This document shows positions 1,094-23,619 of a stretch of 64,000 nucleotides of DNA, piece after piece. Each line of letters begins with the position of its first letter. The first letter of the stretch is position 1. Under the pieces are notes generated by a model. It did not search any database and was not told where the DNA came from. It worked only from the letters and a program-made list of their open reading frames with translations. The position numbers and the translations under genes were made by a program. Origin of the DNA: Neorhizobium alkalisoli (GTDB lineage Bacteria; Pseudomonadota; Alphaproteobacteria; Rhizobiales; Rhizobiaceae); NCBI RefSeq assembly GCF_007829835.1, contig NZ_VIWP01000001.1, positions 744,001 to 808,000 on the forward strand, given 5' to 3'.

Positions 1094-1098
1094 AGGCC

Positions 1099-8665: not shown

Positions 8666-8685
8666 CCTATACATGAGTATGGTTG
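8666..8685 (+). promoter_or_regulatory. ATAC-N4-GTAT box upstream of moaA
   Basis: CCTATACATGAGTATGGTTG contains the perfect half-sites ATAC and GTAT four bases apart and the GGTTG extension shared with the copies at 21206 and, as AGTTG, 12651 and 23600. It ends 50 bases before the moaA start codon. It is a candidate binding site for the FixJ-type regulator encoded at 10344-11021 (inference). Confidence 0.6.
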
Positions 8686-8735
8686 TTCCATCGCTCTGCC
8701 TGCGGGATTGTTGTGCCGGTTCGGAAGGAATTGCG

Positions 8736-9779
8736 ATGCAGACGACAGCTCTTCACACGGCACATGGATCCGAAGCGGCAGCGGAGGGCGGGCTCGTCGA
8801 TCCGTTCGGCCGGTCGGTCACCTATCTGCGCGTTTCCGTGACAGACCGCTGCGATTTCCGCTGCACCTATTGCATGGCCGAGAATATGTCCTTCCTTCCA
8901 AAGAAGGATCTGCTGACCCTCGATGAACTTGACCGACTCTGTACGGCCTTCATCTCGAGGGGCGTCCGCAAGCTGCGCCTGACGGGCGGCGAACCGCTGG
9001 TTCGCAAGAATATCATGCATCTGGTGCGTCAGCTTGGCCGCCATATCGGCTATGGTCTGGACGAACTGACCCTGACGACAAACGGCTCCCAGCTCGCACG
9101 ACACGCCGAGGAACTCGCCGATTGCGGCGTGCGCCGGATCAATGTCTCGCTCGACACGCTCGACCCGGAAAAGTTCCGCAGGATCACCCGGTGGGGTGAT
9201 TTCTCCCGGGTCATGGAAGGGCTGGATGCAGCCCAGAAGGCCGGCATTGCGATCAAGCTGAATGCCGTTGCCCTCAAGGACTTCAACGCCCCGGAAATGC
9301 CCGATCTCATCCGGTTCGCGCATGGTCGCGGCATGGATCTCACGGTTATTGAGACGATGCCGATGGGCGAGATCGAGGAGGATCGCACCGACCGATACCT
9401 TCCCCTGTCGAAGCTGCGCACGGACCTGGAGCAGCAATTCACCTTCCAGGATCTGGCCTATCGGACCGGAGGGCCTGCCCGCTATGTGAAGGTTGCGGAG
9501 ACGGGCGGCCGTCTGGGCTTCATCACGCCCATGACCCATAATTTCTGTGAAAGCTGCAATCGCGTCCGGCTCACCTGCACGGGAACGCTCTATATGTGCC
9601 TCGGCCAGAACGACGCCGCCGATCTGCGGTCGGTGCTGCGTACGAGTGAGAGCGACGCGAACCTGCATGCCGCGATAGACGATGCGATTTCGCGAAAACC
9701 CAAAGGGCACGACTTCATCATCGACCGCTCGAACAACCGCCCAAGTGTCGGCCGCCATATGAGCGTGACCGGTGGCTGA
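8736..9779 (+). CDS. moaA: GTP 3',8-cyclase MoaA (molybdenum cofactor biosynthesis)
   Basis: The 347-residue radical-SAM enzyme converts GTP to (8S)-3',8-cyclo-7,8-dihydroguanosine 5'-triphosphate, the first step of molybdopterin synthesis. The SAM [4Fe-4S] motif is Cys39-X3-Cys43-X2-Cys46 ([15 protein letters not shown]). The second cluster lies in [15 protein letters not shown]. The chain ends in Gly-Gly, which is essential for MoaA activity. The start at 8736 follows GGAAGGAA. The gene stands alone without moaB/C/D/E, so it is probably a second, specially regulated copy serving an induced molybdoenzyme such as formate dehydrogenase (inference). Confidence 0.93.
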
Positions 9780-9781
9780 GG

Positions 9782-9794
9782 CGGATAGTATCCG
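9782..9794. repeat. 13-bp perfect palindrome downstream of moaA
   Basis: CGGATAGTATCCG (6-bp arms around one base) lies 2 bases past the moaA stop. A second small hairpin, CGGCC-ACC-GGCCG with TTTA after it, is near 9918-9934. Together they may end the moaA transcript and the convergent receiver gene. No strong T-run is present. Confidence 0.35.
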
Positions 9795-9930
9795 ACGCGT
9801 TCCGAGACCGTCCTGATGCAAAAGCACCCGGCGCTCGTTTAAATCAACGCAATCAACTCTTCATGGGAATTCGTTCGGCGGATACCGCTTGCGGCAAATG
9901 ATCTGGCCGGATTAGACGGCCACCGGCCGT

Positions 9931-10311
9931 TTATGCCGGCTTGGGCAGAGCAAGGGCCGTGTCGATGAACTCGATCAGCTTCGTCAGGTCGACGGGTTTC
10001 CCGAGGAAAGCCAGTGCGCCGCCATCAAGCGCCGCGGTGCGCGTACGCTCGTCGTGATAGGACGTCATGAAGATCATCGGCGGGCGATCGCCTTCCTGGT
10101 TAAGGCGGCTCTGCAGCTCGATGCCGCTCAGGCCCGGCATTTTGACGTCGACGACCATGCAGTCTACGGACGCGCGCGGCTTGAACGCCAGAAACGCCTC
10201 GGCAGACTCGAAAAGCTTGCTCTCGTAACCCAGGGACTTGACCAGGTCATCGAGCGCTTCGCGGATAGCCAGGTCATCATCGACAATGGCGATTAGGGAC
10301 GTTTGGGACAC
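9931..10311 (-). CDS. Stand-alone receiver-domain response regulator
   Basis: The 126-residue product is a single CheY/FixJ-type receiver domain with no output domain. The acidic pair is in IAIVDDD, the phospho-acceptor Asp is in CMVVDVKMPG, the switch Thr is in MIFMTSY, and the Lys is in AFLGKPVD. It lies last in the histidine kinase-FixJ-receiver run (32 bases after the regulator stop). It could be a phosphate sink or modulator of the kinase, or signal to another partner. The family is certain; the role is inferred. Confidence 0.9.
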   Translation of the reverse strand: MSQTSLIAIVDDDLAIREALDDLVKSLGYESKLFESAEAFLAFKPRASVDCMVVDVKMPGLSGIELQSRLNQEGDRPPMIFMTSYHDERTRTAALDGGALAFLGKPVDLTKLIEFIDTALALPKPA

Positions 10312-10343
10312 TTATTACGACTTTCATAGTTTTCGCATCGGTC

Positions 10344-11021
10344 TCAAGCCACACGCACGAGTGTGGGCTTTGCTGACCGTACCAGATGTTCATTCGCCTG
10401 CTCGGTGGCCCGAACCAGTTCGGCCACCGACTTGACCTGCATCTTTCTCATGACGTTGCCGCGATGCAGTTTCACGGTGATTTCGCTGATCCCCAGCCGG
10501 AAGGCGATCTGCTTGTTCATCAGCCCCTCGACAACGGCCCCCATCACCTCGCGTTCCCGCACTGTCAAGGTTTCGAACCGGGTGGCGACGTCCTGATGCC
10601 GGCGCATTTCGCGGCGGCGGGTCGCGTCGCGCTCGACGGCGGCGAGGACCGCATCGAGAATGTCCTGATCGCGGAAAGGCTTGGCGAGAAAATCGACGGC
10701 ACCTGCCTTCATGGCACGCACGCTCATCGAAATATCTCCGTATCCGGTCATGAAAACGACCGGCAGGAGGCTTCCGGCGCGCTCAAGATGGGCCTGGAAG
10801 TCGAGTCCGTTGACGCCCGGCAAACGAACATCAAGCACGATGCAGCCCGCCCGGTTGAGATCCGCCATTCCCATGAACTCGTTGGGATTGGCAAAAGCCT
10901 CTGCCTCGATCTGCATCGAGCGGAAGAGATCGACGAGCGATTCCCGCATCGAAAGGTCATCATCGAGAATGTAGATGACGGGAGCGTCTGGGTTTCGCTT
11001 GCTGCTCTTCAATTCAAGCAT
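10344..11021 (-). CDS. FixJ/NarL-type response regulator (receiver + LuxR HTH)
   Basis: The 225-residue product has an N-terminal receiver (YILDDDLSMRE; phospho-Asp in CIVLDVRLPG; MTGYGD; DFLAKPF) and a C-terminal LuxR helix-turn-helix (LTVREREVMGAVVEGLMNKQIA, then LGISEITVKLHRGNVMRKM). This is the FixJ/TodT architecture of transcription activators. The ATG at 11021 has AGGAG upstream and overlaps the stop region of the kinase gene by 8 bases, so the two are translationally coupled. It is the obvious candidate to bind the repeated ATAC-N4-GTAT boxes in 8.6-23.6 kb; FixJ-class HTH proteins bind palindromes as dimers. Confidence 0.93.
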   Translation of the reverse strand: MLELKSSKRNPDAPVIYILDDDLSMRESLVDLFRSMQIEAEAFANPNEFMGMADLNRAGCIVLDVRLPGVNGLDFQAHLERAGSLLPVVFMTGYGDISMSVRAMKAGAVDFLAKPFRDQDILDAVLAAVERDATRRREMRRHQDVATRFETLTVREREVMGAVVEGLMNKQIAFRLGISEITVKLHRGNVMRKMQVKSVAELVRATEQANEHLVRSAKPTLVRVA

Positions 11022-12597
11022 TGGCCGTCTCCTTCGGTAATCTGATTTCAAAAATTGCGCCGCCATCGGGGTGGTTGCGCCCGTCAAGCGAGCCCCCAAT
11101 GGCCTCAATGGTACTTCTGCAAATAGAAAGACCGATCCCCATGCCGTTTTCCTTGGTCGTGAAGAAAGGTTTGAATAGGTTCTGCTGGGCCTCAGCACCC
11201 AATCCGTCACCGGTGTCGCGCACGGTGATCGAGACATGATCCGCGTCTGCCGGAGCATCCAGCGTGATCGTCACCAGTTTTCGCAGCGCTTCCGATGCGG
11301 TCATCGCCTGGGCGGCGTTGGAAATAAGGTTGATCAGGACCTGCTGCATCTCGACCCGAACGCCGGAAACAGCCGGAATTTTAGTCTTGAAGATGACGTC
11401 CACTTCCGCACGCTCACGCTGAAGATCGTGGTCCATCAGGGTCAGCGTATCATCCACCAGCACGCCGAGGTCGATGGTTTCATTCTCCTTCGGCGCGGCG
11501 AGCATCACGGCGCGGGTATTCTTGAAAATATCGCTGGCGCGGTTGCTGTCCCGCAGGATCCGCTCCGCCGACCGCTTGGCCGCCTCGATATCGGGTGGAT
11601 TCCGATCAAGCCAGCGAACAAGCGTCTGCGAATTGACCGCGATCGCCCCAAGCGGCTGGTTGAGTTCATGCGCCAGAGACGCAGACAGGGCGCCGACGGT
11701 CGCAGCCTTTGAAGCGCGGCTCAGCTCCGCCTGTGCATCGGCCAGCGCCTTGCGCGCCTCTTCGCGCTGGGTGACATCGACCATGCTGACGATGACGCGG
11801 TTGAAGGCGGAAGGATCCTTCGGAAAGCTGATGCCAAGCAGGACGAGCCTCGGCTCGCCATTCTCGTTGAAGACTTCGGCATTGTCTTCGAAATAGGTGG
11901 CGCCATCCATGATCGCCTGCAGCAGCGCCGAGAACGCGTCGCTGTCCTTCGGAATGATACGATGCATGATGCCGCCCGGAATGTCGGCCGCGAACGAGCC
12001 GAGAAGCTCGACAGCCGCCGCATTGGCATCAACGATCGCGATCTTGTCGACACATTCGGCGAGGAAATCGGGATTGGCCTGTGCATAGGCTTTGGCGTCC
12101 TTCACACCACGCGCTTTCAGGCCGACGAGGAAATCGCGCAGCCTCGAATAGTCGCGTTCCCACAGGGCAACACGAGTGCGATCGAAGATCGCGCGGTAAC
12201 GCGCCTCGCTTTCGCGCAGGGCAGCGTTTGTCTGAAGCAGCTCGGCCCTGGCCTGTTCGGTGCGCAGGAGCAGTGCCGCCGTCACGGCAAGTGCCGCCAG
12301 CGCCACACAGAGGCGCAGAAAGGTCGGAAAGTCCGGATCCGGCGTATGCGTCAGGAAGAACGAGATCAGCGTGCAGACGATGAACAGAGCGGTGAGCGCG
12401 ATCAGTCCGAGCCGGCTGGCGGCTTCGGCGGCCAGTAGAAGAGCGATCGCATAGAGTACCGCGATCGCGCCCTCGATATCCGTGAACGTATCCACGGCAA
12501 AAACGGCGGCAGCCACGATAAGAGCCGCGCCACCGAAGATGATATCGTGGCGACCTGCCTCTTGCCTTGCCAATCTGAACTGCAGCATCTGTGCCAT
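11014..12597 (-). CDS. Membrane-bound PAS sensor histidine kinase
   Basis: The product is about 527 residues. Residues 15-110 form about four transmembrane helices. A PAS-like sensor region follows (ALRESEARYRAIFDRTRVALW, with IVDANAAAVELLG). The dimerisation/phosphotransfer helix is ASLAHELNQPLGAIAVN (phospho-His in AHELNQP, FixL-like HWE-negative type), then the ATPase with VLINLISNAAQAM (N box), DTGDGL, FKPFFTTKENGMGIGLSI. I chose ATG 12597; the frame opens at a TTG four codons earlier. A box at 12651-12670 lies 54 bases upstream, suggesting autoregulation. The signal is unknown. Confidence 0.92.
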   Translation of the reverse strand: MAQMLQFRLARQEAGRHDIIFGGAALIVAAAVFAVDTFTDIEGAIAVLYAIALLLAAEAASRLGLIALTALFIVCTLISFFLTHTPDPDFPTFLRLCVALAALAVTAALLLRTEQARAELLQTNAALRESEARYRAIFDRTRVALWERDYSRLRDFLVGLKARGVKDAKAYAQANPDFLAECVDKIAIVDANAAAVELLGSFAADIPGGIMHRIIPKDSDAFSALLQAIMDGATYFEDNAEVFNENGEPRLVLLGISFPKDPSAFNRVIVSMVDVTQREEARKALADAQAELSRASKAATVGALSASLAHELNQPLGAIAVNSQTLVRWLDRNPPDIEAAKRSAERILRDSNRASDIFKNTRAVMLAAPKENETIDLGVLVDDTLTLMDHDLQRERAEVDVIFKTKIPAVSGVRVEMQQVLINLISNAAQAMTASEALRKLVTITLDAPADADHVSITVRDTGDGLGAEAQQNLFKPFFTTKENGMGIGLSICRSTIEAIGGSLDGRNHPDGGAIFEIRLPKETANA

Positions 12598-12650
12598 GAA
12601 TGGTTCCAAATCTTTGAGATCGAGGATACCGGTTCATGGCACCCGCCGGA

Positions 12651-12670
12651 CCTATACAATGGTCTAGTTG
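12651..12670 (+). promoter_or_regulatory. ATAC-N4-GTAT-type box upstream of the histidine kinase
   Basis: CCTATACAATGGTCTAGTTG keeps the CCTATAC half and the AGTTG tail of the shared box; the right half is GTCT instead of GTAT. It lies 54 bases before the kinase start. The kinase reads leftward, so the near-palindrome is used from the opposite face. Autoregulation is inferred. Confidence 0.5.
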
Positions 12671-12720
12671 ATCGGCTTGCGACACCGCCAGATCCCTGCT
12701 TTTCCATGACAAATATCCAG

Positions 12721-12761
12721 AAAAAAGAGGCCGCCTTCCCGGCGGTGGAAGGCGGCCTTTT
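12721..12761 (-). terminator. Strong intrinsic terminator
   Basis: GGCCGCCTTCC (12729-12739) and GGAAGGCGGCC (12747-12757) pair over 11 bp with a 7-base loop. Read leftward it is followed by TC and six T (12726-12721). Read rightward only four T follow (12758-12761). It lies upstream of the kinase promoter box, so it most likely ends the putative small RNA. Confidence 0.85.
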
Positions 12762-12870
12762 GCGGATCGCGGTGGTCCGCAGTTGGTCCGAGGGGAGGGG
12801 TTGCTCGGACCTGCAGCGCCTGGCGCTACTGACCTCGTCGAGGGGCGGGCGATCGAGGTAACGAGATGAA
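12721..12870 (-). ncRNA. Putative small regulatory RNA with C-rich loop (5' end approximate)
   Basis: This leftward unit has no open frame. It is bounded by a shared box at 12896-12915 and by a textbook intrinsic terminator at 12721-12757. Internally GGTCCGAG/CTCGGACC (12804-12811 and 12785-12792) forms a perfect 8-bp hairpin whose loop in the leftward RNA reads CAACCCCTCCC, able to pair with GGAGGG-type ribosome binding sites. Rhizobial sRNAs of the αr15 and CcsR type expose comparable CU-rich anti-Shine-Dalgarno loops; this one is similar in principle, not shown to be homologous. The flanking genes have their own promoter (kinase) or terminator (13020 gene), so the terminator needs an owner. 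Confidence 0.45.
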
Positions 12871-12895
12871 GACTACCGCCGCAGCGGGCGCGGCG

Positions 12896-12915
12896 TAACT
12901 ATACTTAGGTGTTGT
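12896..12915 (-). promoter_or_regulatory. ATAC-N4-GTAT-type box upstream of the putative small RNA
   Basis: On the minus strand this reads ACAACACCTAAGTATAGTTA, matching the CACCTAAGTAT and AGTT core of the copies at 21206 and 23600. It points toward the 12870-12721 interval, where there is a terminator but no protein gene. Confidence 0.5.
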
Positions 12916-12949
12916 CAGGTATATACGTTTGCATGCAAGCAATCATGGC

Positions 12950-12987
12950 GGGAAACAAAAGGCCCTGCGATGCGATCGCGGGGCCTT
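12950..12987 (-). terminator. Intrinsic terminator of the 13020-13343 gene
   Basis: AAGGCCCTGCGAT and ATCGCGGGGCCTT (12959-12987) pair over 13 bp with one G-U pair and a 3-base loop. Read leftward the stem is followed by TTTTGTTT. It sits 33 bases past the stop of the leftward gene. Confidence 0.8.
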
Positions 12988-13019
12988 GTCCATCCATCCG
13001 ATGCGGGTTGGTACCCATT

Positions 13020-13343
13020 TCAGGCTGCAAGACTTTGTTCGATCCGGCCAACCGAGGCTGCCATCCTTTCAATCAAGGCAGGCCCGTAGCTTGCCGCAGC
13101 GATCTCGGCGGCCGACAGGCGAAACGAGTCGGAAAGCTCTGCCAGCATCGTTTGCAGGTCCTTCCGGTCGCGCCGTCTCGCGGCAGTGGACATTTCCCCG
13201 AGCCTGATGGAAAGACCCATGATGACGTCGTGGCGCGCTTCGGCCGTGATCGACATCAGGTGCTTTCTGGTTTGCAGTCCAAGGGCCGTAAGGCCGGCCT
13301 GCTGCCCAGCCTCGACGAAATCGCCGGCCATCTCTTCATACAT
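13020..13343 (-). CDS. Small helical protein of unknown function
   Basis: The 107-residue product is predicted cytoplasmic and almost entirely helical, rich in Ala, Met, Glu and Arg, with no cysteine and no signal peptide. I recognise no domain. The ATG at 13343 has GAGAGG 7 bases upstream; the frame runs further upstream without support. It has its own terminator (12950-12987). Its promoter region, shared with the divergent cupin operon, contains the palindrome CATACGTATG at 13426-13435, an ATAC/GTAT pair without the four-base spacer seen elsewhere. Confidence 0.65.
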   Translation of the reverse strand: MYEEMAGDFVEAGQQAGLTALGLQTRKHLMSITAEARHDVIMGLSIRLGEMSTAARRRDRKDLQTMLAELSDSFRLSAAEIAAASYGPALIERMAASVGRIEQSLAA

Positions 13344-13530
13344 CGTTCGACCTCTCTCCTGCCCGGCAGGCGGGCGTGATCCGTGAATTGTCGAAAGCCT
13401 AGCCTCCATTCCGTGGTCGCTGAATCATACGTATGTTTAGGGCGCCAGGCGGATCGTATCGGAGCCTCGCCGCGAGGCCTGCCGCTCTATGGGACATGTG
13501 CCGGTATCGTTAAGCGAAGGTCTGGCCCGA

Positions 13531-13550
13531 CCTATACCTAAGCTTGATAT
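13531..13550 (+). promoter_or_regulatory. ATAC-N4-GTAT-type box upstream of the cupin-mqo operon
   Basis: CCTATACCTAAGCTTGATAT matches the first 12 bases of the shared box exactly (CCTATACCTAAG) and diverges in the right half. It lies about 93 bases before the cupin start codon in the divergent promoter region. Confidence 0.45.
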
Positions 13551-13642
13551 CGCCGCTGATTGTTGGCGCCTTAGGCTGAACCTCACGACAAGCCGGCCAG
13601 GCCTCCTCTTGCTGGAGCCTGCCGAACAGTGAGGTGAAAGAC

Positions 13643-14059
13643 ATGTTTCGATGCGTGCGGATCTGGACCGACAGCGAGGGCAATTCCGAGTTTGAAGAGG
13701 GGCTTATCGATCTTCCGAAGGGAGATCGGGGCGACACGCTGAGCGCTGTTTTCGACACCGCCTCGATCTCGTTTCGCGAGACCGCACCCGGCGGTGAATA
13801 TGCCTGGCACCCGGCCCCGATCCGGCAGTTCGTTCTGACCTTGAGTGGCACGCTCGAGTTCGAAACCAAGCTTGGAAAGCGTTTCACCATCCGTCCCGGC
13901 GATATCCTTCTTGCCGAAGACACGACGGGCGGCGGGCATCGCTGGAGGCTGCTGGGCGACGCCCCCTGGCGGCGTGCCTACGTGATCCTCGCCAGCGGTT
14001 CCGCCGCGGGCTTCGTCGCATCAACCTCGCTCCAGTCGAAGGATGAAGCACATGGCTGA
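13643..14059 (+). CDS. Single-domain cupin protein
   Basis: The 138-residue product is one cupin barrel. Motif 1 is degenerate ([25 protein letters not shown]) and motif 2 is [25 protein letters not shown]; the single His of each suggests metal binding with an incomplete ligand set. Such small cupins are often of unknown function or bind small acids. ATG 13643 follows GAGGTGAAAGAC. The gene overlaps the next by 8 bases, so its product is probably made in step with malate:quinone oxidoreductase. Confidence 0.8.
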
Positions 14060-15545
14060 CGTGAACGAGAAAGCCGATATCGTCCTCATCGGCGCCGGCA
14101 TCATGAGCGCAACGGTCGCGACCATGCTGAAGGAGCTGGAACCCAGCCTGTCCGTGGTCGTGTTCGAAACGCTCGGCGATTGCGCGCTCGAAAGCTCGCA
14201 TGGATGGAACAATGCCGGGACCGGCCATGCGGCCAATTGCGAGCTGAATTACACGCCCCAGCGCGCCGACGGCACTGTCGACATCCACAAGGCGCTGGAG
14301 GTCAATGTCGAGTTCGATCTCTCGCGCCAGCTGTGGTCGCATCTCGTCCGCAAGGACGCGATCAAGGATCCCGGCGCCTTCCTGCATGCCTGCCCGCATA
14401 TGAGCTTCGTGACCGGAGATGCCAATGTCGCGTTTCTGCGCAAGCGCTTCGAGGCCATGACAAAGAGCCATTGCTATCACGGCATGGAATTTTCGGATGT
14501 CTCGTCCAGGATCGAGGAATGGGCTCCGCTCGTCATGGAAGGTCGCGCCGGTGATGAGCCCGTTGCCGCCACACGGATCGTCTCGGGTGCGGATGTCGAT
14601 TATGGCGCCCTCACCCATCTGCTGATGTCGCAACTTTCGGCGCAAAGCGGTTTCTCCGTCTTCTACAGGCATAGGGTCAGCGACCTCACCCGCACGGAGA
14701 ACGGCAAATGGCGCGTCGAGGTCGAAGATGCCGAAACCGGCTATATCTCTTCCACCATCGCCAGCTTCGTTTTCATCGGTGCCGGCGGCGCATCAATCGA
14801 GCTCCTGCAGAAATCCGGCATTCCCGAAGGCCACGGTTATGGCGGTTTTCCGGTCAGCGGCATCTGGCTTCGGTGTGACGAGGCTGCAGTCGCCAGCCGT
14901 CACCATGCCAAGGTTTATGGCAAGGCGGCGCATGGCTCCCCGCCCATGTCCGTGCCTCACCTCGACACACGCATCATCGGCGGCAGGCGTTCGGTCCTGT
15001 TTGGCCCCTATGCCGGCTTTTCGACCAAGTTCCTCAAGGAAGGATCCTATCTCGATCTCTTCGGTTCGATCCGTCCCTCCAACATCCTGCCGATGCTGGA
15101 CGTGGCCTTCCACAGCCTGCAGCTTGAGGAATATCTTGTCGGGCAAGTGGTCGAAACCGACCGCGCCAAATTCGAAACCCTGCAACACTTCTTCCCGATG
15201 GCACGGCGTGAAGACTGGACGGAGGCGGTTGCCGGTCAGCGCGTGCAGATCATCAAGCCGAAGGGACATGTGGGTGGCGAGCTGGAATTCGGCACGGAAC
15301 TGATCGCGGCTGCCGACAATTCCCTTGTCGCACTCCTCGGCGCCTCCCCCGGCGCTTCGACCGCGGCCTTTATTGCGATCGAAGTTCTGGAAAAGTGCTT
15401 TGCCGACAGGCTGACGGAAGACGGCTGGCTGCCTCGCCTGCGCGAGGTCATCCCGACCTATGGCATCGACCTCAAGACCGATGCCGATGCCTGCCACAGG
15501 ATCAGGTCCGAAACCGCTTCCGTGCTCGGCCTGGAATTTGTGTGA
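14052..15545 (+). CDS. mqo: Malate:quinone oxidoreductase
   Basis: The 497-residue FAD enzyme oxidises malate to oxaloacetate at the inner face of the membrane and passes electrons to quinone. It shows the N-terminal nucleotide-binding [17 protein letters not shown], the Mqo signature [41 protein letters not shown] and [12 protein letters not shown], and the C-terminal [12 protein letters not shown]. Length matches the family. ATG 14052 has AAGGA 8 bases upstream; ATG 14043 is too close to it. It sits in a cupin-mqo-thrE-fumC run with fumarase, so consecutive TCA steps (fumarate to malate to oxaloacetate) are encoded together. Confidence 0.95.
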
Positions 15546-15551
15546 CCTGCC

Positions 15552-16850
15552 ATGATAAAGGTCGGTGACAGCCAAGCTCCACAACCTCGGGCTTCCATTC
15601 CTCCGGCACGCGCAGCCCATATTGCTGCGCGTATCGGCCGACTGCTCTACGTGAATGGCGCCGACACCCGCCATGTCGTCCACAATGTCACGGAAGTTGC
15701 CGGGCACCTTGGCCATGCGGCGCATGTACTGGTCACCCCGGAAGGTATTCTGGTCACGGTCGGCACCGAGGAGCAGTTCAGCACCAAGGTCGGCCATGAA
15801 GTCACGGCAACAGCCGTCAACATGGGAAAACTGCTGGAAATCCAGCGGATCGTCGATGATGCGCGGATCGGGAAAGATGGATTTGCTGCGATAGAGCAGC
15901 GGATCGATGCAGCCGAATCCGACGGTCACGACTATCCGGAATATGTCGTCATGCTCGGCGTGGCAGTCACCACCGGCTCATTGGCAATGCTGTTCGGGTC
16001 ACCCTGTTCTGTCGCGATCGTATCCTTCGTGACCGGCCTCGTCAGTGCATTTCTGCGGAAACATCTGCCGGCATTCCTGCCGAATGCATTCGCGGTTACT
16101 TTCGCTACCGCGATCATTAGCGGCCTCGTTGCGGTCTTTGTCCTGCGGCTGTGGCCGGGAGAATCGCCGATCCTTGCGCTGACGGCGGCCGGAATGATCC
16201 TCGTTCCCGGCGTGCCCCTGATCAACGGTATTCGCGAGATCGCCACAGGTCATGCGGGCAACGGCATTGCCCGGCTGGCGACAGGTATCTCGCTCGTGCT
16301 GGCGATCGGGTTTGCACTTTATACAGTCGGGTTCGCGACTGGTGCCGATCTGCCTGTGGACGTCGGTCCCGGCACTCTTCCCGTCATCGAAGACCTGCTG
16401 TTTTCCGCTCTCGCTGCAGCGGGTTTCGCCCTGCTGTTCGGCGTTCCACCAAGGGCGATCGGCTTCTGCCTTCTCGCGGGCATGGCCGGCCACGGTCTGC
16501 GCACCGGCCTTGAGGAACTGGGGCTGAGCCTGCCGATCGCATCCCTGATCGGTGCGGTCTCTGCGGCCCTCGTCGCAAGGCTGGCAGCCGCGGTCCATCG
16601 CGTGCCTGCCGTCGTCTTCGCCTTCCCGGGCGTCGTCGCGATGATCCCCGGCTCCTACGGATTTCGCGCAGGAATCGGCGGGCTGCAGCTGATGGCACAG
16701 GGAGCCACCGCCCCGCACGACCTGATCGCCAACACGTTGGCACTCGCCATTACCACCGCCGTGACCACGATCGCCATCGGCATCGGCCTGGCGTTGCCAC
16801 TCTCGGGTTATCCCGCAGACCCCTCTTCTTCATACGGACGAAAGGATTGA
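15552..16850 (+). CDS. Threonine/serine exporter family (ThrE-like) membrane protein
   Basis: The 432-residue product starts 7 bases after mqo. The N-terminal half has the ThrE_N motif region (IGRLLYVNGADTRHVVHNV, TPEGILVTV), followed by about ten transmembrane helices, with GMILVPGVPLINGIREI and FAFPGVVAMIPGSYGFRA marking the two fused membrane modules. ThrE-type proteins export threonine/serine by proton antiport. Placement between mqo and fumC is unusual and hints at export of a small acid or amino acid made when the pathway runs. The substrate here is not established. Confidence 0.85.
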   Translation: MIKVGDSQAPQPRASIPPARAAHIAARIGRLLYVNGADTRHVVHNVTEVAGHLGHAAHVLVTPEGILVTVGTEEQFSTKVGHEVTATAVNMGKLLEIQRIVDDARIGKDGFAAIEQRIDAAESDGHDYPEYVVMLGVAVTTGSLAMLFGSPCSVAIVSFVTGLVSAFLRKHLPAFLPNAFAVTFATAIISGLVAVFVLRLWPGESPILALTAAGMILVPGVPLINGIREIATGHAGNGIARLATGISLVLAIGFALYTVGFATGADLPVDVGPGTLPVIEDLLFSALAAAGFALLFGVPPRAIGFCLLAGMAGHGLRTGLEELGLSLPIASLIGAVSAALVARLAAAVHRVPAVVFAFPGVVAMIPGSYGFRAGIGGLQLMAQGATAPHDLIANTLALAITTAVTTIAIGIGLALPLSGYPADPSSSYGRKD

Positions 16851-16854
16851 GACC

Positions 16855-18315
16855 ATGAATGATACCGCCAACAGCCACCCTGTCATGAAGGATGTTGCGA
16901 TCGGCCTCGATGCCGCCGGCGAGCGGACGGAGTTCGACAGCATGGGTGAGGTCAAGGTGCCGGCCGACCGATACTGGGGCGCCCAGACACAGAGGTCGCT
17001 CCTCCATTTCAATATCGGCGGCGACCGGATGCCGAAAGCCGTCTACCGGGCCTATGGCACCGTCAAGAAGGCGGCCGCTCTCGTCAACGGCCAGTCCGGG
17101 CATCTCCCTGGCTGGAAGGTTGATGCCATCGTCAAGGCCGCCGACGAGGCGATCGCCGGCAAGCTCGACGATCACTTTCCGCTGTTTGTCTGGCAGACCG
17201 GCTCAGGCACGCAGTCCAACATGAATGTCAACGAAGTCCTGTCGAACCGGGCGATCCAGCTGCTCGGCGGCACGCTCGGCTCGCAGCATCCGGTTGGCCC
17301 GAACGACGACGTCAATATGGGCCAGTCTTCCAATGACAGCTTTCCGACGGCAATGCATATCGCCGCGGTGACGATCATCGACGACCGCCTCATACCCGAA
17401 CTCGACAAGCTCGCCTCGACAATCGAAACGAAGGCCTACGGCTGGATGGACGTGGTCAAGGTCGGCCGAACCCATCTCGAGGATGCGACGCCGCTGTCGG
17501 TCGGGCAGGAATGGTCGGGATGGGCCGCCCAGATCCGCGCCGTCATCTCCGAAATCCGGCACGCCCGTGAAGGCCTGCTGGAACTCGCGCTCGGCGGCAC
17601 CGCCGTTGGCACGGGCCTCAACGCACCGGCCGGATTTTCTGTCAATGTCGCGAGCAAGATCGCCGAGCTGACCGGAAAACCCTTCGTCACGGCGCCGAAC
17701 AAGTTCATGGCGCAGGGCTCGCTCGATCCGATGGTGCGCGCCTCGGCCGCGCTGCGCGGCGCCGCCGTCTCGCTGATGAAGATCGCCAATGACATGCGCT
17801 GGCTCGCTTCCGGCCCACGCTGCGGCTTCGGCGAGCTGAAACTGCCGGCCAATGAACCGGGCTCCTCCATCATGCCCGGCAAGGTCAACCCGACCCAGTG
17901 CGAGGCGATGGTGATGATTTCGATCCAGGTGATCGGAGACGACACGGCAACGGCCTTTGCGGGCAGCCAGGGCAATTTCGAGCTCAATGCGATGCGCCCG
18001 ATCATCATCAATAACTTCCTGCACTCGGCTGCAATCCTCGCCGATGGCTGCGAGAAGTTCCGGACCTATTCCGTCGAAGGCACGGAGATCGACCGGGATC
18101 GCATTCAGTCCTATGTCGACAATAACCTGATGCTGGTCACCGCACTCTCTCCCGTCATCGGATACCAGAAGGCCGCGCATATTGCCGAAAACGCCGCAGC
18201 CACGGGCTCGACGCTGAAGGCAGCAGCTCTCTCCTCCGGTTTCGTCACCGAGGCGCAATATGACAAGGTCATCGTTCCGGGAAACATGATCGGCACCGGC
18301 CTGGTCGGCGCCTGA
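16855..18315 (+). CDS. fumC: Fumarate hydratase, class II
   Basis: The 486-residue product is the iron-independent fumarase that interconverts fumarate and (S)-malate. The aspartase/fumarase signature GSSIMPGKVNPTQCEA is intact, with TGSGTQSNMNVNEV, VGRTHLEDATPLSVGQEW and the lyase GTAVGTGLN loop. It carries an N-terminal extension of about 20 residues compared with E. coli FumC. The start has AAAGGA upstream and lies 4 bases past thrE. Being oxygen-stable, class II fumarase fits an aerobic acid-catabolic operon. It may be an additional copy beside a housekeeping fumarase elsewhere. Confidence 0.95.
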   Translation: MNDTANSHPVMKDVAIGLDAAGERTEFDSMGEVKVPADRYWGAQTQRSLLHFNIGGDRMPKAVYRAYGTVKKAAALVNGQSGHLPGWKVDAIVKAADEAIAGKLDDHFPLFVWQTGSGTQSNMNVNEVLSNRAIQLLGGTLGSQHPVGPNDDVNMGQSSNDSFPTAMHIAAVTIIDDRLIPELDKLASTIETKAYGWMDVVKVGRTHLEDATPLSVGQEWSGWAAQIRAVISEIRHAREGLLELALGGTAVGTGLNAPAGFSVNVASKIAELTGKPFVTAPNKFMAQGSLDPMVRASAALRGAAVSLMKIANDMRWLASGPRCGFGELKLPANEPGSSIMPGKVNPTQCEAMVMISIQVIGDDTATAFAGSQGNFELNAMRPIIINNFLHSAAILADGCEKFRTYSVEGTEIDRDRIQSYVDNNLMLVTALSPVIGYQKAAHIAENAAATGSTLKAAALSSGFVTEAQYDKVIVPGNMIGTGLVGA

Positions 18316-18469
18316 TGCCGGCCAAGCTCCCCCGCACAGTCGGATCGTCCAAAGGTTACCAAGGTTTAACCGCCCGGATATCCGGCTGTAATCAAGAACA
18401 GACTAATTTCCTTTTCATGGTCACAGCAGAACGCCAATGACCGTCGAACCATTACGAAGGATCTCGACC

Positions 18470-18802
18470 ATGTTGACTACGACACGTCAGTTCGTCACCA
18501 CCGGTCTAGTCGCCTTGACGATAGCCAGCACGGCTCTCGTCACCGCCTCGCAGGCTGAAGCTCATGATAATTTCGGCCGCGGCCTTGCCGCCGGCGTAGC
18601 CGGCGCCATCGTCGGCGGTGCATTGGTTGCCGGCGCTACCAACGCCTATGGCTACGGTGCTCCGGTCTATGCCACCGCACCCTACGGGCCTCCGCCCTAT
18701 GTCTATGGCCGCGGTCCGGTCGTCTCCTATTATCCGTCCTGCCACATCGCCTGGCATCAGGATCGTTGGGGCGACATGTATCGCGTCCGCGTCTGCAACT
18801 GA
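18470..18802 (+). CDS. Small exported glycine/tyrosine-rich protein
   Basis: The 110-residue product begins with a clear signal peptide (about residues 1-32, ending ASQAEA). A glycine-zipper-like stretch (GLAAGVAGAIVGGALVAGA) follows, then a Gly/Pro/Tyr-rich region and two cysteines near the C-terminus (YPSCHIAWH and VRVCN) that could form a disulfide. It is probably periplasmic or envelope-associated. Function unknown. ATG 18470 has AAGGA 8 bases upstream. It is followed by a small GC hairpin (18811-18828) and then the DegP-type protease gene. Confidence 0.75.
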   Translation: MLTTTRQFVTTGLVALTIASTALVTASQAEAHDNFGRGLAAGVAGAIVGGALVAGATNAYGYGAPVYATAPYGPPPYVYGRGPVVSYYPSCHIAWHQDRWGDMYRVRVCN

Positions 18803-18919
18803 CCCATTCCTGCCGGCCAGGGCCGGCATCCTGAAATGCCCATGATCGACCACTCGCACGCCACCTCACCGGTAGCGATGAGCCCGCTTGTCCCAATTTT
18901 AGCCAGAAAGTGAAAACCC

Positions 18920-20470
18920 ATGTCGAACATCACTGAAAGAAAGCCGAATATCATTCAAAGAAACCGGATCCTGGCTTTGGTCGGCGCCGCCATTATCGCC
19001 GTGCCACTGGCAGCCCCGATCATCCTCGGCACGAATTCGGCCTTCGCCGCCGCCTCGTCGACACCGGCCGTTGCCGGGATCGTTGCGCCGGCCGGTTCGT
19101 TCGCATCGATCGTCTCTGCAGACAAACCTGCGGTCGTTACGATCACCAGCACGATGAAGGCGGAACCGGTCGCCGCGACCGAGGCATCTCCGTTCGGCGA
19201 AGATTCGCCCTTCAACGAACAGTTCCAGCAGTTCTTCGGCCAGAAGGGCATCCCCATGCCGCGCCAGGCCCCTGAACAGCGGCAGTCACAGCATGCCCAG
19301 GCTCTGGGATCCGGCTTTATCATCAGCTCGAACGGCTACATCGTCACCAATAACCACGTGATCGACAAGGCGATGAGCATTAAGGTCACGCTTGATGACG
19401 GAACCGAATTGCCCGCCAAGCTGATCGGTGCCGATCCGAAATCCGACCTCGCAGTGGTCAAGATCGAAGCCAAGAAGCCGCTGGCGACCGTCGCCTGGGG
19501 CGATTCCGACAAACTCAAGCTCGGTGACCAGATTCTGGCGATCGGCAATCCGTTCGGCATCGGCACGACCGTGACAGCGGGCATTGTCTCGGCTCGTGGC
19601 CGCGACCTGCATTCCGGCCCCTATGACGACTTCATCCAGATCGATGCGCCGATCAACCATGGCAATTCGGGCGGACCGCTGGTCGACACGGAAGGCCAGG
19701 TGGTCGGCATCAACACGGCGATCTATTCGCCGAATGGTGGTAGCGTCGGTGTCGGCTTTGCCATTCCGTCCGATCAGGCACAGAACATCGTTGCCAAGCT
19801 GATCAAGAACGGCTCGATCGAGCACGGCTTCCTCGGTGTCGAAATCCAGCCCGTCACCGCGGATGTCGCCAATGCCATCGGTCTCGACAAGGCTGACGGT
19901 GCCCTGGTCGCCGGCGTCAATGATGACACGCCTGCCTCCAAGGCCGGGGTCAAGACCGGCGACGTCATCACCGCACTCGGCGGAAAGCCGGTTTCGAGCC
20001 CACGCGATCTCTCCCGCATGGTGGCTGACCTTGCCCCCGGTGACCGCCAGGATCTGACGGTCTGGCGCCAGGGCGCATCCCGGACGCTGCAGCTGACGAT
20101 CGGCGGCAACAGCCAGGATCAGGAACAGGCATCCGCCGAAAGCGGCAAGGCCGGTCCTGCCGCGCATAAGGTCCCGACCATCGGTATCGGCCTTGCCGAT
20201 ATCACCGATGACGTGCGCCAGGCCCTGAACCTGTCGAGGCAGGAAAAGGGTGCGGTCATCGAAAGTGTCGCGCCGGACAAGCCTGCCGCCGATGCCGGCC
20301 TTCAGCCCGGCGATGTGGTCGTCGCCGTCAACCAGCAGCCGGTGAAGTCTGCAGAGGAAGCCAAGACCGCCGTTGCGGATGCAGGCAGGGCCGGCCGGAA
20401 GGCTGTCCTGCTTCTCATCCAGCGCGGCGAAAACAAGAGCTTCGTCACCGTGCCGTTCTCGATCGGCTGA
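18920..20470 (+). CDS. HtrA/DegP-type periplasmic serine endoprotease
   Basis: The 516-residue product has an N-terminal signal/anchor segment (about residues 17-43, ending AFA), a trypsin-like domain with His146 (NNHVID), Asp176 (SDLAVVKIE) and Ser250 (HGNSGGP), then two PDZ domains (about residues 300-390 and 415-510). This is the full DegP/DegQ plan for quality control of periplasmic proteins. A Q-rich linker lies at about residues 92-127. It is a single gene closed by a strong terminator. Which of the several rhizobial Deg paralogues it is cannot be told from sequence alone. Confidence 0.93.
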   Translation: MSNITERKPNIIQRNRILALVGAAIIAVPLAAPIILGTNSAFAAASSTPAVAGIVAPAGSFASIVSADKPAVVTITSTMKAEPVAATEASPFGEDSPFNEQFQQFFGQKGIPMPRQAPEQRQSQHAQALGSGFIISSNGYIVTNNHVIDKAMSIKVTLDDGTELPAKLIGADPKSDLAVVKIEAKKPLATVAWGDSDKLKLGDQILAIGNPFGIGTTVTAGIVSARGRDLHSGPYDDFIQIDAPINHGNSGGPLVDTEGQVVGINTAIYSPNGGSVGVGFAIPSDQAQNIVAKLIKNGSIEHGFLGVEIQPVTADVANAIGLDKADGALVAGVNDDTPASKAGVKTGDVITALGGKPVSSPRDLSRMVADLAPGDRQDLTVWRQGASRTLQLTIGGNSQDQEQASAESGKAGPAAHKVPTIGIGLADITDDVRQALNLSRQEKGAVIESVAPDKPAADAGLQPGDVVVAVNQQPVKSAEEAKTAVADAGRAGRKAVLLLIQRGENKSFVTVPFSIG

Positions 20471-20490
20471 TATTCACCCGCCAATCGAGC

Positions 20491-20531
20491 CGCCCCCACC
20501 CTGACATGATGTCGGAGTGGGGGCGTTTTTT
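20491..20531 (+). terminator. Strong intrinsic terminator after the DegP-type gene
   Basis: CGCCCCCACCCTGACA (20491-20506) and TGTCGGAGTGGGGGCG (20510-20525) form a long, nearly perfect GC stem with a 3-base loop, followed by six T. It also separates this gene from the convergent AraC gene. Confidence 0.92.
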
Positions 20532-20598
20532 GAGAACCAGACCGGCGTTCGAGACCTCGACTCCATTCTGCCGGAACGGACAGGATTGGGAGCAGCGA

Positions 20599-21093
20599 TC
20601 AGGCTGCGGCTCGCGTGGCGGCCAGGTATCTGTGCTTCTGCCGCCAGGCTGTCGGCGTGATGCCCTCGATGCGCCGGAAAATACGCGACAGATGCGCCTG
20701 ATCTGCCAGCCCACATTCCAGCGCGATCTGGCAAAGCGGTATCTTGTCTTCAAGCATCTGCCGCTTGGCGTGGTCGACACGGCGAGCGATGATATAGGCA
20801 TGGGGCGATATGCCGAAACTACGCCGGAACGCCGCAGCAAAATAACTCGGGCTCAATTTGGCCAATGCGGCAAGCTCATCGACGCTCAGTTTTTCCGACA
20901 ACCTTTCCTCGATCCGGGCGGCCACTCGCCTGATCTGCCAGGGTGCCAACCCGCCGGGCACCGGCTTGCTGACCGCTTCGAAACAGCTACCTGAGCCAGA
21001 CTGCACCGGACCGGAATATTTGCGCGGATCGACATCACCGGTGACGATGGGCAGGGCTGGTGCACGATCAAGAACGGTGTCCTGAATACGCAT
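20599..21093 (-). CDS. Short AraC-type regulator, DNA-binding half only
   Basis: The 164-residue product has a complete AraC double helix-turn-helix (SVDELAALAKLSPSYFAAAFRRSFGISP, then IPLCQIALECGLADQAHLSRIFRRIEGITPTAWR), preceded by GGLAPWQIRRVAARIEERL, the linker that normally follows a ~150-residue effector domain. That effector domain is absent; the first 45 residues are low-information. It could be a natural short regulator (a constitutive DNA binder) or a 5'-truncated gene. ATG 21093 has GGAG at good distance. A shared box at 21206-21225 lies 113 bases upstream. Compare the N-terminal half-gene at 22410-22964. Confidence 0.8.
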   Translation of the reverse strand: MRIQDTVLDRAPALPIVTGDVDPRKYSGPVQSGSGSCFEAVSKPVPGGLAPWQIRRVAARIEERLSEKLSVDELAALAKLSPSYFAAAFRRSFGISPHAYIIARRVDHAKRQMLEDKIPLCQIALECGLADQAHLSRIFRRIEGITPTAWRQKHRYLAATRAAA

Positions 21094-21205
21094 GGTCGGT
21101 CTCCGATGCTGGCAGTAAAGCATTTGCTGGCAGCGATACTGCCGGGCACGGAGACGCGTCGAAACTCAACTGAGATACAGGTTCTATAGCCGTCAGTCTA
21201 AGCCA

Positions 21206-21225
21206 TCCATACCTAAGTATGGTTG
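21206..21225. promoter_or_regulatory. ATAC-N4-GTAT box, best-preserved copy
   Basis: TCCATACCTAAGTATGGTTG contains CCATAC and GTATGG, 6-bp arms that pair perfectly around CTAA. This is the most symmetric copy of the shared box. It lies upstream of the short AraC gene (-) and past the stop of the next AraC gene. Confidence 0.6.
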
Positions 21226-21294
21226 CGCGCAAGATCACAATCGTGATCGACGGCGAGACGAAGAGCGCGTTGCCCCCCGGTTGTTGCATGCATA

Positions 21295-22242
21295 TCAGGC
21301 GTTACGGCGCCATTGTCCCGGCGTGGTTCCGACCGTATTGGCAAATGTCCGGGTAAAATGGCTCTGGTCTGCGAAGCCACATGCCGTTGCCACGTCCGAA
21401 AGCGACATTTCGGACGTTCGAAGCAATTCGCACGCCCTGGAAATCCGTTCCTTCTGGAGCCAGCGGTAGGGCGTCATGCCTGTCGTTTCGCGAAACGCAT
21501 GGATAAAGTAGCCACGCGAAAGATTGCAGGCTTTTGCGACATCGAGAATGGAAATGTCGCCCTTCAGGTTCTCGAGGAACATGTTCTTTGCCAAGGCTTC
21601 ATGAGAGCGCGAAAGCTTCCTCGAGGCTTTGGCCGAAACGAGCTTTCCGCCATATTCCTGGACAATGTGAATGCCGATGGCCGATGCCAGCTGATCGACG
21701 AACAATCTGCTGGCATGTTCGGGATGTTCAAGCGCCGGGATCAGTGTTTTTACGAGATTGGCAAGGACGGGATCACTCCATGCCGTCTTGATGTCCAGCG
21801 ACGCGATGCCCGCAAGATCGCTCTCCTGCGCAATCCGCTGAAGCGCTGCGGGCGAGATTTCGAGCAACAGGAAGTCGAACGGCCCGCCGAGATCCGCCTT
21901 GTAAGGATCCGCGAGATTTCGGACATAGATCGAATTCTCGGCGAAATCATAGGTCGTGGCATGGTGTTCGTGAAAGATCCGGCGCGAATGGCCACCCGTC
22001 GTCGAAATGCCGATCGCAAATCCGCGCTCGCTGGCGGGCGTCGTGACCTGTTCCAGCTTCAGCTCCAAAGCGCCCTTGCGGAAGAAGCTGATATCGGCGC
22101 CCTGAATGGACTGGTTCTTGTAAAGCTTGTCGAATGGGCAGCCAAAGCTGTCCGTCGCCTTCACGATCCGCGCCTCTGCCCTATTTGCAGAATTATGATC
22201 CAAAATGCGCAACTTTCCTGATCGAGAGGCCCGACTGATCAT
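21295..22242 (-). CDS. AraC family transcriptional regulator (full length)
   Basis: The product is about 315 residues. An N-terminal effector domain of about 200 residues (through FLLLEISPAALQRIA and FVDQLASAIGIHIVQEYGG) is followed by the C-terminal AraC double helix-turn-helix (SILDVAKACNLSRGYFIHAFRETTGMTP, then SLSDVATACGFADQSHFTRTFANTVGTTPGQWR). I chose ATG 22242; an in-frame GTG at 22275 would add 11 residues. It is the intact member of a cluster of three AraC-type genes or part-genes. Target and inducer are unknown. Confidence 0.85.
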   Translation of the reverse strand: MISRASRSGKLRILDHNSANRAEARIVKATDSFGCPFDKLYKNQSIQGADISFFRKGALELKLEQVTTPASERGFAIGISTTGGHSRRIFHEHHATTYDFAENSIYVRNLADPYKADLGGPFDFLLLEISPAALQRIAQESDLAGIASLDIKTAWSDPVLANLVKTLIPALEHPEHASRLFVDQLASAIGIHIVQEYGGKLVSAKASRKLSRSHEALAKNMFLENLKGDISILDVAKACNLSRGYFIHAFRETTGMTPYRWLQKERISRACELLRTSEMSLSDVATACGFADQSHFTRTFANTVGTTPGQWRRNA

Positions 22243-22409
22243 GTCTTGTACAGTCAAAAATGCCAGCCACCTCACGTTGACCGATTTCGGCCGGCGAAGC
22301 CATAGCGATCAGCCGCGGCGCCAAAAAACACAGTAACAATATACAAATCCATACTGGACAGGACGCCCCAAATTCGGATCATGGCCGGGGTGCGAATGCG
22401 AGAAGAACA

Positions 22410-22964
22410 TTGGCAACAGGTGAAGAAATCGCCGATTGTTTCGGTGCAGATGACGTAAGCTCTCTTGTAACCAGGCCACTGAAAGGGGCGGAACTTTCGA
22501 TTACACATCTCCGGCATGATTACGAGGATGGAGACGCCCCGGTGATCCTGCCTTCGGATGATGCGTTTCTGATTGTGCTCTATCTCGTCGATGTGGAACA
22601 TCGCGACCTCTACCCCGACCGTCCCCCTGCGCCCCTCAAGCGTTATACCGAAGGGTCCATTTGCCTTATCAGCCTCGACCAGGGTGCCACGATTGCGATC
22701 TGCGGCCGATTTGAAGCAATCCTTTTTCACTTCCCCCGCCGCCATCTGACGGAACCTGCGGAAAAGGCGGGAGAACCGCTCGTCAAGGAACTTGCGGTCT
22801 GCCGTGGCGTGAAAGACCAGACCATTGCCGACCTCGGCGCAGCCCTGTTGCCGATCCTGCATGCGCCATCCGGAGGGGTGGATCGACAGGCACTGCCGTA
22901 TATCTGCCTGGCCTTCAGCGCCCATATCGCCCATCGATATGGGCGGCCTTACCATCCCCACTAA
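22410..22964 (+). pseudogene. AraC-type effector domain lacking the DNA-binding half
   Basis: The open frame (from a TTG; no in-frame ATG near) encodes about 184 residues that look like the N-terminal half of the same AraC subfamily as the neighbour: DDAFLIVLYLVDVEHRDLY, FEAILFHFPRRHLTEPAEKAG, then ALPYICLAFSAHIAHRYG. In family members this last motif leads into GGLAPWQ and the helix-turn-helix. Here it stops within six residues, and no helix-turn-helix is visible in any frame downstream. It is probably a decayed gene, or less likely a stand-alone effector domain. Confidence 0.6.
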
Positions 22965-22994
22965 GAGGCGTTGCCGGGCGAACAGCACGGCCAT

Positions 22995-23014
22995 CCTATA
23001 CCAAGGTGCCGTCG
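22995..23014 (+). promoter_or_regulatory. Weak ATAC-N4-GTAT-type box upstream of the frameshifted membrane gene
   Basis: CCTATACCAAGGTGCCGTCG matches the left half of the shared box (CCTATACC.AAG) but not the right. It may be a decayed copy, in keeping with the degenerate gene at 23237-23564 downstream. Confidence 0.25.
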
Positions 23015-23236
23015 GCCTAGACCTTGAAACGATTTCGCCGGCGGCAGCCAAGTCGTACCCTTCTGCAGCAATGAGCAAGTGCCTGGAGCCACGATCTCCA
23101 CCTGGCCGAAAACGGCCGGCGTCCTCAGATCGTCCTTGGCTTCAGACCACGTTTGATCCCAAGCCCGGCCTCTCAACCGGTCGCAACCAAGTGATCCGGC
23201 ATGCTGGCTGGCCGGCTGCCCAGAAGGAATACGGTT

Positions 23237-23564
23237 ATGATCATCAACGAACGCGCCCCGAACATACTTCTTATCGTCACGCCGCTCGCTGTAACAGCGG
23301 TTTTCCTGCTCGATATCCTCGGCCCGGCTTCGCCGTATTCGAGCGCCCTCTACGTGCCCCCTCATCCTGCTTTCCATCTGGGTATTTTCCGCAGCCGGCG
23401 TCGCCTATACCGGGCTGGTCTGCTTCGTGATGACGATCGCCGGTTTTGTGCTGTCGCGAAATGAAGGTTTTGAGCGGACAAGCCCGTTCGATCTTTTCGC
23501 CATCCTTGCCGTCATCGCCATCACGACGATCATAGCGCTGGTCACAGCGCGGCCCGCCCGGTGA
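23237..23564 (+). pseudogene. Frameshifted membrane-domain remnant resembling the local histidine kinase N-terminus
   Basis: From ATG 23237 the frame encodes a membrane segment (NILLIVTPLAVTAVFLLDIL), then loses register at a run of five C (23357-23361). One base fewer there restores ILLSIWVFSAAGVAYTGL, a third helix, the loop SRNEGFERTSPFDLF, a fourth helix and VTARPAR before a stop at 23564. Helix order and loop lengths match the membrane part of the kinase at 11014-12597 (ALY..LLL, loop THTPDPDFPTF, LLLRTEQAR). The PAS and kinase parts are missing. It is either a relic of a second kinase copy or a short membrane protein with a sequencing error. Confidence 0.55.
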
Positions 23565-23599
23565 TCTCGGGTCGCGGGCCAGACCGAAGGTCTTGCCGA

Positions 23600-23619
23600 T
23601 CCACACCTACGTATAGTTG
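23600..23619 (+). promoter_or_regulatory. ATAC-N4-GTAT-type box upstream of oxdC
   Basis: TCCACACCTACGTATAGTTG has the right half GTATAGTTG intact and ACAC for ATAC on the left. It closely matches the minus-strand copy at 12896-12915. It ends about 150 bases before the oxdC start, leaving room for a promoter and leader. Confidence 0.55.

Follow-up and report, generated by a model that had tools for sequence, protein, structure and literature searches.

The two-component cassette and the palindromic box

The window, a stretch of 64,000 nucleotides of the Neorhizobium alkalisoli genome (C1:744001-808000, C1 being contig NZ_VIWP01000001.1; the host genome has 7.03 Mb), carries a two-component cassette around which one palindromic box recurs upstream of genes and of a small RNA. 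Positions are those of the window unless a contig or locus is named. The cassette lies on the minus strand and consists of a membrane histidine kinase (HK, 11014-12597; Pfam HisKA and HATPase_c), a FixJ/StyR-type response regulator (RR, 10344-11021; Pfam Response_reg and GerE), which is the proposed binder of the box, and a single-domain response regulator (RD, 9931-10311; Response_reg only). With both domains above the Pfam cut-offs, RR belongs to the NarL/FixJ class of response regulators; it scores below the NCBIfam equivalog models of FixJ proper (200.3 bits, cut-off 255) and of EvgA (47.2 bits, cut-off 251). The nearest solved structure is 1yio (E 5e-53), which we take to be StyR of Pseudomonas. 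FixJ-type regulators are abundant in bacteria of this kind, and eight matches at E<=1e-40, RR included, were found in the host genome. A second such regulator, RR2, is encoded beside fdhF just left of the window (C1:743259-743903) and is 63% identical to RR.

Six copies of the box and a weak seventh were named in a preliminary description of this DNA, and each was found again in its place and on its strand. From the six sites we built a symmetrised matrix of 16 columns, which was scanned over C1 (1,324,000 bases); intergenic and coding positions were called with a simple in-house script for genes, not a standard gene finder. Within the cassette region, the kinase is preceded by two boxes on the minus strand, a proximal one (12652-12667; 16.9 bits), 62 bp upstream of the start and with TATCCT 39 bases from the box start, and a distal one (12899-12914; 20.3 bits), with TAGTCT at the same distance and its centre 42 nt upstream of the model start of the small RNA. 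On the plus strand, boxes stand before moaA (8667-8682; 20.2 bits, intergenic, centre 61 bp upstream of the gene, as on the plasmid pAt-B441 described below), before the cupin-mqo-thrE-fumC series (13532-13547; 15.5 bits, 103 bp upstream of the start, with a weak right half) and before oxdC (23601-23616; 19.6 bits, 161 bp upstream of the start). The box before a short AraC gene (21207-21222, minus strand; 23.1 bits) is the strongest of the genome scan, and the weak site at 22996 reaches 11.2 bits with the six-site matrix. The impression that the box is absent from the rest of the window was nearly right, but an additional copy at 13425-13440 (minus strand; 16.3 bits, TAGGCT 39 bases from the box start) had been missed, together with a marginal one at 7517 (12.7 bits). 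Searched literally, the 20-mer gave only two matches at up to three mismatches, and none in 100 shuffles.

The box is real, as had been observed, and it is clustered. In an island of 42 kb (C1:727000-769000), 13 sites score at least 13 bits, all of them intergenic, and the remaining 1.28 Mb of C1 holds one intergenic site and two inside genes. At 12 bits or more the island has 15 intergenic and no coding sites (the rest of C1, 3 and 5), and at 11 bits or more 16 and 1 (the rest, 5 and 11). Over the whole contig the real matrix gave 16 hits of at least 14 bits and sixty permuted ones gave 5.9 on average and 51 at most, so the contig total alone is unexceptional; what is exceptional is the concentration in the island, where the permuted matrices gave a mean of 0.3 and a maximum of 2 hits and the real one gave 13. 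In 824 kb of pooled loci the real matrix found, at 16 bits or more, 39 intergenic and one coding non-seed matches, compared with means of 0.39 and 0.62 for 100 column-permuted matrices. The exact pattern CYANACNNNNGTNTRG, itself partly shaped by the very sites counted, occurs at eight places in the 7.03-Mb genome, six of them within C1:728911-767616; its reversed control occurs at 21.

Intergenic boxes also occur outside the island. One, at C1:571540 (18.1 bits), is the only such site of at least 13 bits elsewhere on C1 and stands 123 bp upstream of a minus-strand gene. Another, at C5:398876 (L076:12877; 16.5 bits), has a third FixJ-type regulator (C5:395621, 52% identical) at a distance of about 2.7 kb.

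Conservation of the box

Relatives of RR were compared in 85 loci, 79 from genome contigs and 6 from plasmids (the best 80 of 248 relatives were kept); they are not independent samples, sets of near-identical Rhizobium strains being among them. An intergenic box of at least 13 bits is present in 77 of them, in Rhizobium, Neorhizobium, Agrobacterium, Martelella, Shinella, Azospirillum, Caulobacter, Microvirga and Ancylobacter. Beyond the alphaproteobacteria, among gamma- and betaproteobacteria, related regulators in two Pseudomonas, one Duganella and one Paraburkholderia have an intergenic box beside them. Counting matches inside genes against those upstream of them had been proposed as a check on the box, and in these loci 198 of 208 matches are intergenic (130 of 133 at 15 bits or more), in agreement with the exclusively intergenic sites of the island.

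The kinase gene gives the sharpest comparison. Among its orthologues (48-100% identical), a box of at least 12 bits lies on the 5' side in 12 of 14 (weak in L098, none in L094 and L099), whereas it is upstream of none of 15 paralogous kinases (33-42% identical); locus L100, with boxes but a broken kinase gene, is not in these counts. Thus, the box occupies the promoter of the regulator's own operon and is absent at paralogues, as in a direct regulon. Orthologues of RD have a box upstream in 30 loci.

The preliminary description had also proposed conservation at moaA and oxdC as a check. Conservation is wide at the kinase, but at the other two genes it comes mainly from one other locus, the A. 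tumefaciens plasmid pAt-B441, which is the only other case of a boxed moaA seen and nearly the only one of a boxed oxdC. This plasmid carries the cassette, with a regulator 89.8% identical to RR. Boxes stand there upstream of the small RNA, the kinase, moaA, fdhF, the luciferase-like monooxygenase genes, the short AraC gene (at 129 bp) and a bicupin oxdC, and also of a formate/nitrite transporter gene behind which lies a second oxdC. No box before mqo-fumC was seen in the other loci, and pAt-B441 keeps just a 63-aa fragment of Mqo.

Promoter layout

Across 114 distinct sites, the core is near-invariant in its A-C and G-T, and its flanks read CTA and ATA/G-G. The distance from the box to the gene start is also constrained, being 62-66 bp in 10 of 13 matches for fdhF and 69-81 bp in 26 of 31 for RD. 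The hexamer TANNNT begins at an offset of precisely 39 bases from the box start in a fraction of 0.33 of 144 promoters, from which near-duplicates had been removed; no other offset between 18 and 74 exceeds 0.07, and at offset 39 the hexamer was found in none of 68 antisense controls. Among 14 oriented promoters of the island, six have it (small RNA, kinase, box 13425, fdhF, LLM1 and HlyD). A -10 hexamer at -12 to -7, combined with this offset, would place the centre of the box near -43. StyR activates from a site at about -40, according to the available excerpt of PMC2442086, and it is this likeness, together with the fixed spacing to the -10 element, on which the designation of the box as an activator site is based; the promoters are predicted to be of class II. 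We infer that RR binds the box and regulates positively, and consider it probable that the box is the operator through which RR (10344-11021) activates the island, its own operon and the RNA.

The small RNA behind the distal box

The preliminary description had placed a putative small RNA upstream of the kinase. A conserved structured RNA is indeed encoded there, behind the distal box 12899 and TAGTCT, as a stretch of 145 nt on the minus strand (12864-12720; C1:756720-756864) with five hairpins, C-rich loops and a terminator. Its fold has a z-score of -6.2 (-4.1 to -8.3 in seven relatives), and a covariance model, R1, built from six close relatives with the window copy left out, finds it at E=4.7e-11, as well as copies away from the kinase (L188, L061, L058 and L165). 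In 31 aligned copies 93.6% of cells pair, two-sided changes occur in 30 of 35 pairs, and the covariation score is 0.543, compared with 0.184 for shuffled and at most 0.11 for slid alignments; since the alignment was fitted to the structure and related strains were counted separately, these figures are flattering.

The RNA and the box go together. For this count 39 of 45 R1 matches were used, six antisense ones being excluded. Of those with E<0.001, 31 of 33 have an upstream box of at least 10 bits with its centre 33-66 nt before the model start (29 at 33-45 nt), although six of the 31 had trained the model; the two without a box are L158 and L173, of which L173 also lacks the 5' part. In 57 genomes of the genus R1 matched ten places at E<=0.001. 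The five with E<1e-9 are all boxed and the other five are not: L233 is a truncated copy and L234-L237 are weak (E 2e-5 to 7e-4), of which L237 has a C-rich hairpin and cannot safely be dismissed. A second model, R2, found six places at E<=1e-5 in 397 genomes of the order, the window included, and five of these are preceded, at 37-50 nt, by a box-like site of 10.0 to 20.3 bits; the sixth, L241, is unboxed and terminator-like. In N. galegae DS1499, around L173:8000-8310, only the 3' end of the RNA is left and the box is gone, and the kinase orthologue there has no upstream box.

No Rfam family reached its gathering score for the RNA. The ar14 family (RF02344) in particular gave no match over its cut-off at C1:756720-756864; it has such copies elsewhere in the host genome (C1:160559, C1:18237, C2:33275, C4:147443 and C4:97299), and the four examined are all without a box. 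The loop motif CCCCUCC is present in 26 of 31 copies of the RNA and CCUCCUCCC of ar14 in three; the first and third loops are both C-rich in 11. When duplex energies of the third loop were computed against the starts of 1097 C1 genes, the 20 genes of box operons paired less well than the others (p=0.015), but five shuffled loops reproduced this shift (p 0.0002 to 0.055), which is therefore unspecific. The best single pairing of the third loop (-26.2 kcal/mol) is with the start of an aldose-epimerase-like gene (27023-27964, minus strand), a possible target.

Genes of the island

The earlier proposal of a regulon of six units is supported, but the set is about twice as large, for the island runs on to the left of the window. 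There, a box at window-relative position -15089 precedes a gene for a cytochrome bd-type oxidase (Pfam Cyt_bd_oxida_I; the second subunit and the name CioAB were assigned by eye), followed by PoxB, a ubiquinone-dependent pyruvate dehydrogenase (990.6 bits, cut-off 792); divergently from these lies a HATPase-domain gene. Further boxes precede an HlyD-MFS pair (-11977), behind which MoeA is encoded, a ferritin/Dps-like gene (-5968), a protein of no assigned family (-3954; 12.3 bits) and fdhF (-3203 and -3162). FdhF falls within the FdhF/YdeP subfamily (963.8 bits, cut-off 582) and below the YdeP equivalog (1003.3 bits, cut-off 1473). The box at -83 (15.5 bits), just outside the window, stands before two luciferase-like monooxygenase genes (80-2142, plus strand; Pfam Bac_luciferase). 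Dps-type genes are recurrent neighbours of the box in relatives. A DUF308 gene at L019:14264-14833, presumably HdeD-like, and a ferritin/Dps-like gene at L019:13414-13929 lie inside the island.

Within the window, the boxed genes on the plus strand are moaA, for biosynthesis of the molybdenum cofactor (Moco) (8736-9779; TIGR02666, 373.5 bits, cut-off 284), the series of cupin, Mqo, ThrE and FumC genes (13643-18315; identified by Pfam, the cupin match being below the gathering score) and oxdC, of the bicupin oxalate decarboxylase family (23770-24909; TIGR03404, 539.8 bits, cut-off 254). On the minus strand they are the short AraC-type regulator (20599-21093; Pfam HTH_AraC/HTH_18) and the protein behind box 13425 (13020-13409), which has no Pfam match. 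Before oxdC there is a short hydrophobic frame (23238-23564) that, by eye, resembles the leftover N-terminus of a membrane sensor kinase.

A local regulon governed by RR and joining oxalate decarboxylation, Moco synthesis and malate/fumarate oxidation had been suggested. The comparison supports such a regulon, but its centre appears to shift: with FdhF/YdeP, PoxB and the bd-type oxidase among its members, formate/oxalate and quinone-linked oxidation seem to matter more in it than Moco and malate/fumarate do by themselves. Decarboxylation of oxalate consumes a proton and yields formate, of which FdhF/YdeP with Moco could dispose; quinones carry the electrons handled by the bd oxidase, PoxB and Mqo.

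Alternative explanations

A number of observations weigh against the reading that RR acts through the box on the island. Eight of the 85 loci lack an intergenic box of at least 13 bits (six have no match and two coding matches only), and the box of fdhF tracks the regulator imperfectly: in the 30 loci compared, it is near the start in 6 of 13 close orthologues (at least 70% identical) and in none of the 17 distant ones (48-56%). Eight of the 14 oriented island promoters, those of moaA, oxdC and the short AraC gene included, have no TANNNT at offset 39; no Pfam family matched the sensor region of HK, and no RNA target among the 1097 C1 genes was supported by the duplex scan of the third loop. 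Moreover, RR and RR2 have most of the recognition helix in common (TVKLHRGNVMRKM), so RR2 may share the sites. The box could then be bound mainly by RR2, or by several FixJ-type regulators jointly with RR as one of the group, in keeping with the boxes near other such regulators (on host contig C5 and in genome G018). We find this somewhat unlikely: on pAt-B441, which retains RR and the boxes, the RR2 orthologue beside fdhF (L056:31932-32554, minus strand) is broken by stops and a frame change; this favours RR as the binder. In addition, the kinase-RR promoter is boxed across many genera. That the box is a scattered repeat or a chance similarity devoid of regulatory function is very improbable. 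It is short, and permuted matrices do reach 51 hits on the contig, but their best result in the island is 2 against 13, and neither the fixed distances to the -10 element and to gene starts nor the intergenic bias would be expected of such a repeat.

If RR is taken as the binder, the nature of the RNA and of the signal have still to be considered. The position of the RNA directly upstream of the kinase in most loci would suit a leader or attenuator of the kinase mRNA; this seems unlikely, though, as a terminator with a U run closes the RNA, many loci have a separate proximal box for the kinase, and the copies away from the kinase keep the same box spacing. As to the signal, redox state or low oxygen, sensed through the quinone pool, is a serious rival to acid or organic acids. 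The oxidases and quinone-linked dehydrogenases would then be the core of the response and the oxalate and formate enzymes electron sources; in favour of this, the island or its neighbourhood includes genes for the bd-type oxidase, PoxB and Mqo as well as luciferase-like and nitroreductase ones. We regard this as possible, if less probable than not, since OxdC, FdhF/YdeP and the HlyD-MFS pair mirror the acid-responsive set of EvgA (available excerpt of PMC4283999), and oxdC and the formate dehydrogenases of B. subtilis are acid-induced (available excerpt of PMC2788229), both arguments being indirect for this island. On the same grounds, the island most likely encodes an acid/oxalate-formate response whose likeness to E. 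coli EvgAS is one of content and not of descent, with regulators that are non-orthologous; acid or weak organic acids would be its signal.

Proposed mechanism

The box, with its position, spacing and conservation, and the structure of the RNA were established computationally. In the mechanism that we propose on this basis, the membrane kinase would phosphorylate RR, and RR in this form would occupy the AC-N4-GT dyad, with its centre near -43, where as a class-II activator it would substitute for a -35 element. RR would activate its own kinase-regulator operon, in many relatives along with the single-domain regulator behind it, and an island of about 40 kb for disposal of protons and electrons, comprising OxdC, FdhF/YdeP with the Moco genes, the bd-type oxidase with PoxB, Mqo-FumC and HlyD-MFS. 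From the distal box before the kinase an RNA of about 145 nt and five hairpins would be expressed, and its C-rich loops could mask the Shine-Dalgarno sequences of other mRNAs. Taken as a whole, this amounts to a FixJ/StyR-type system commanding an alphaproteobacterial acid/oxalate-formate island with an RNA arm, namely a new five-hairpin anti-Shine-Dalgarno family under the same operator, usually in the kinase promoter region. We give this full scheme, read from sequence, an even chance of being correct.

If it is true, one phosphorylation event would both activate the island and repress translation elsewhere, and a two-component system would be tied to a new structured RNA. A sharp operator with fixed promoter spacing would make the regulon readable across genera. 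The island is in any case a second instance, outside E. coli, of a YdeP-type oxidoreductase beside an oxalate decarboxylase.

Comparison with known systems

To our knowledge, few FixJ-type regulators have a described operator. The preliminary description knew of no regulon with such a box; likewise, we found no description of the box, the regulon or the RNA in the open-licence papers searched, in which four literal spellings of the box are absent too. For AcfR of Azorhizobium, no operator or regulon was found in the available excerpts of the literature, and the response-regulator mutant mentioned in the excerpt of an acid-stress screen of R. tropici could not be linked to RR. A rhizobial acid-linked two-component locus comparable to the cassette is TcsA-TcrA-FsrR (lpiA) of S. 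medicae. It is not the same system: the regulators, whose frames (tcsA, tcrA and fsrR) were inferred from their place before lpiA, are non-orthologous (31-44% identity over 61-102 aa), and its 32 kb contain no box of at least 12 bits.

In content, the island parallels EvgS/EvgA of E. coli, where likewise a regulator of the NarL/FixJ class controls ydeP, oxalate genes and an HlyD-MFS pump of the emrKY type; the parallel is one of analogy only. The operator presumably differs from that of EvgA. Furthermore, RR falls short of the EvgA model, and HK matches just HisKA and HATPase_c, unlike EvgS, an unorthodox multi-domain kinase; OxdC stands here in place of the CoA route, and the island has an RNA besides. 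According to the available excerpt of PMC4283999, EvgA controls emrKY and oxalate genes as well as ydeP, and YdeP is suggested to break down formate and so to keep an acid-resistance cycle from oxalate to formate turning; the same excerpt states that no explanation of the role of YdeP had been proposed earlier.

StyR, of the FixJ family, is the presumed identity of the structure nearest to RR and has its activator site close to the position predicted here; it differs in controlling styrene catabolism. The small RNA has its counterpart in the anti-Shine-Dalgarno RNAs ar14/NfeR1, which also have several hairpins with C-rich loops and of which NfeR1 is tied to the two-component system NtrBC (available excerpts of PMC3927594 and PMC10746234). 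In those there are three hairpins with CCUCCUCCC, and here there are five, with CCCCUCC in the third. Regulators of this class and RNAs of this general kind are already known, and it is their combination under one operator that is new.

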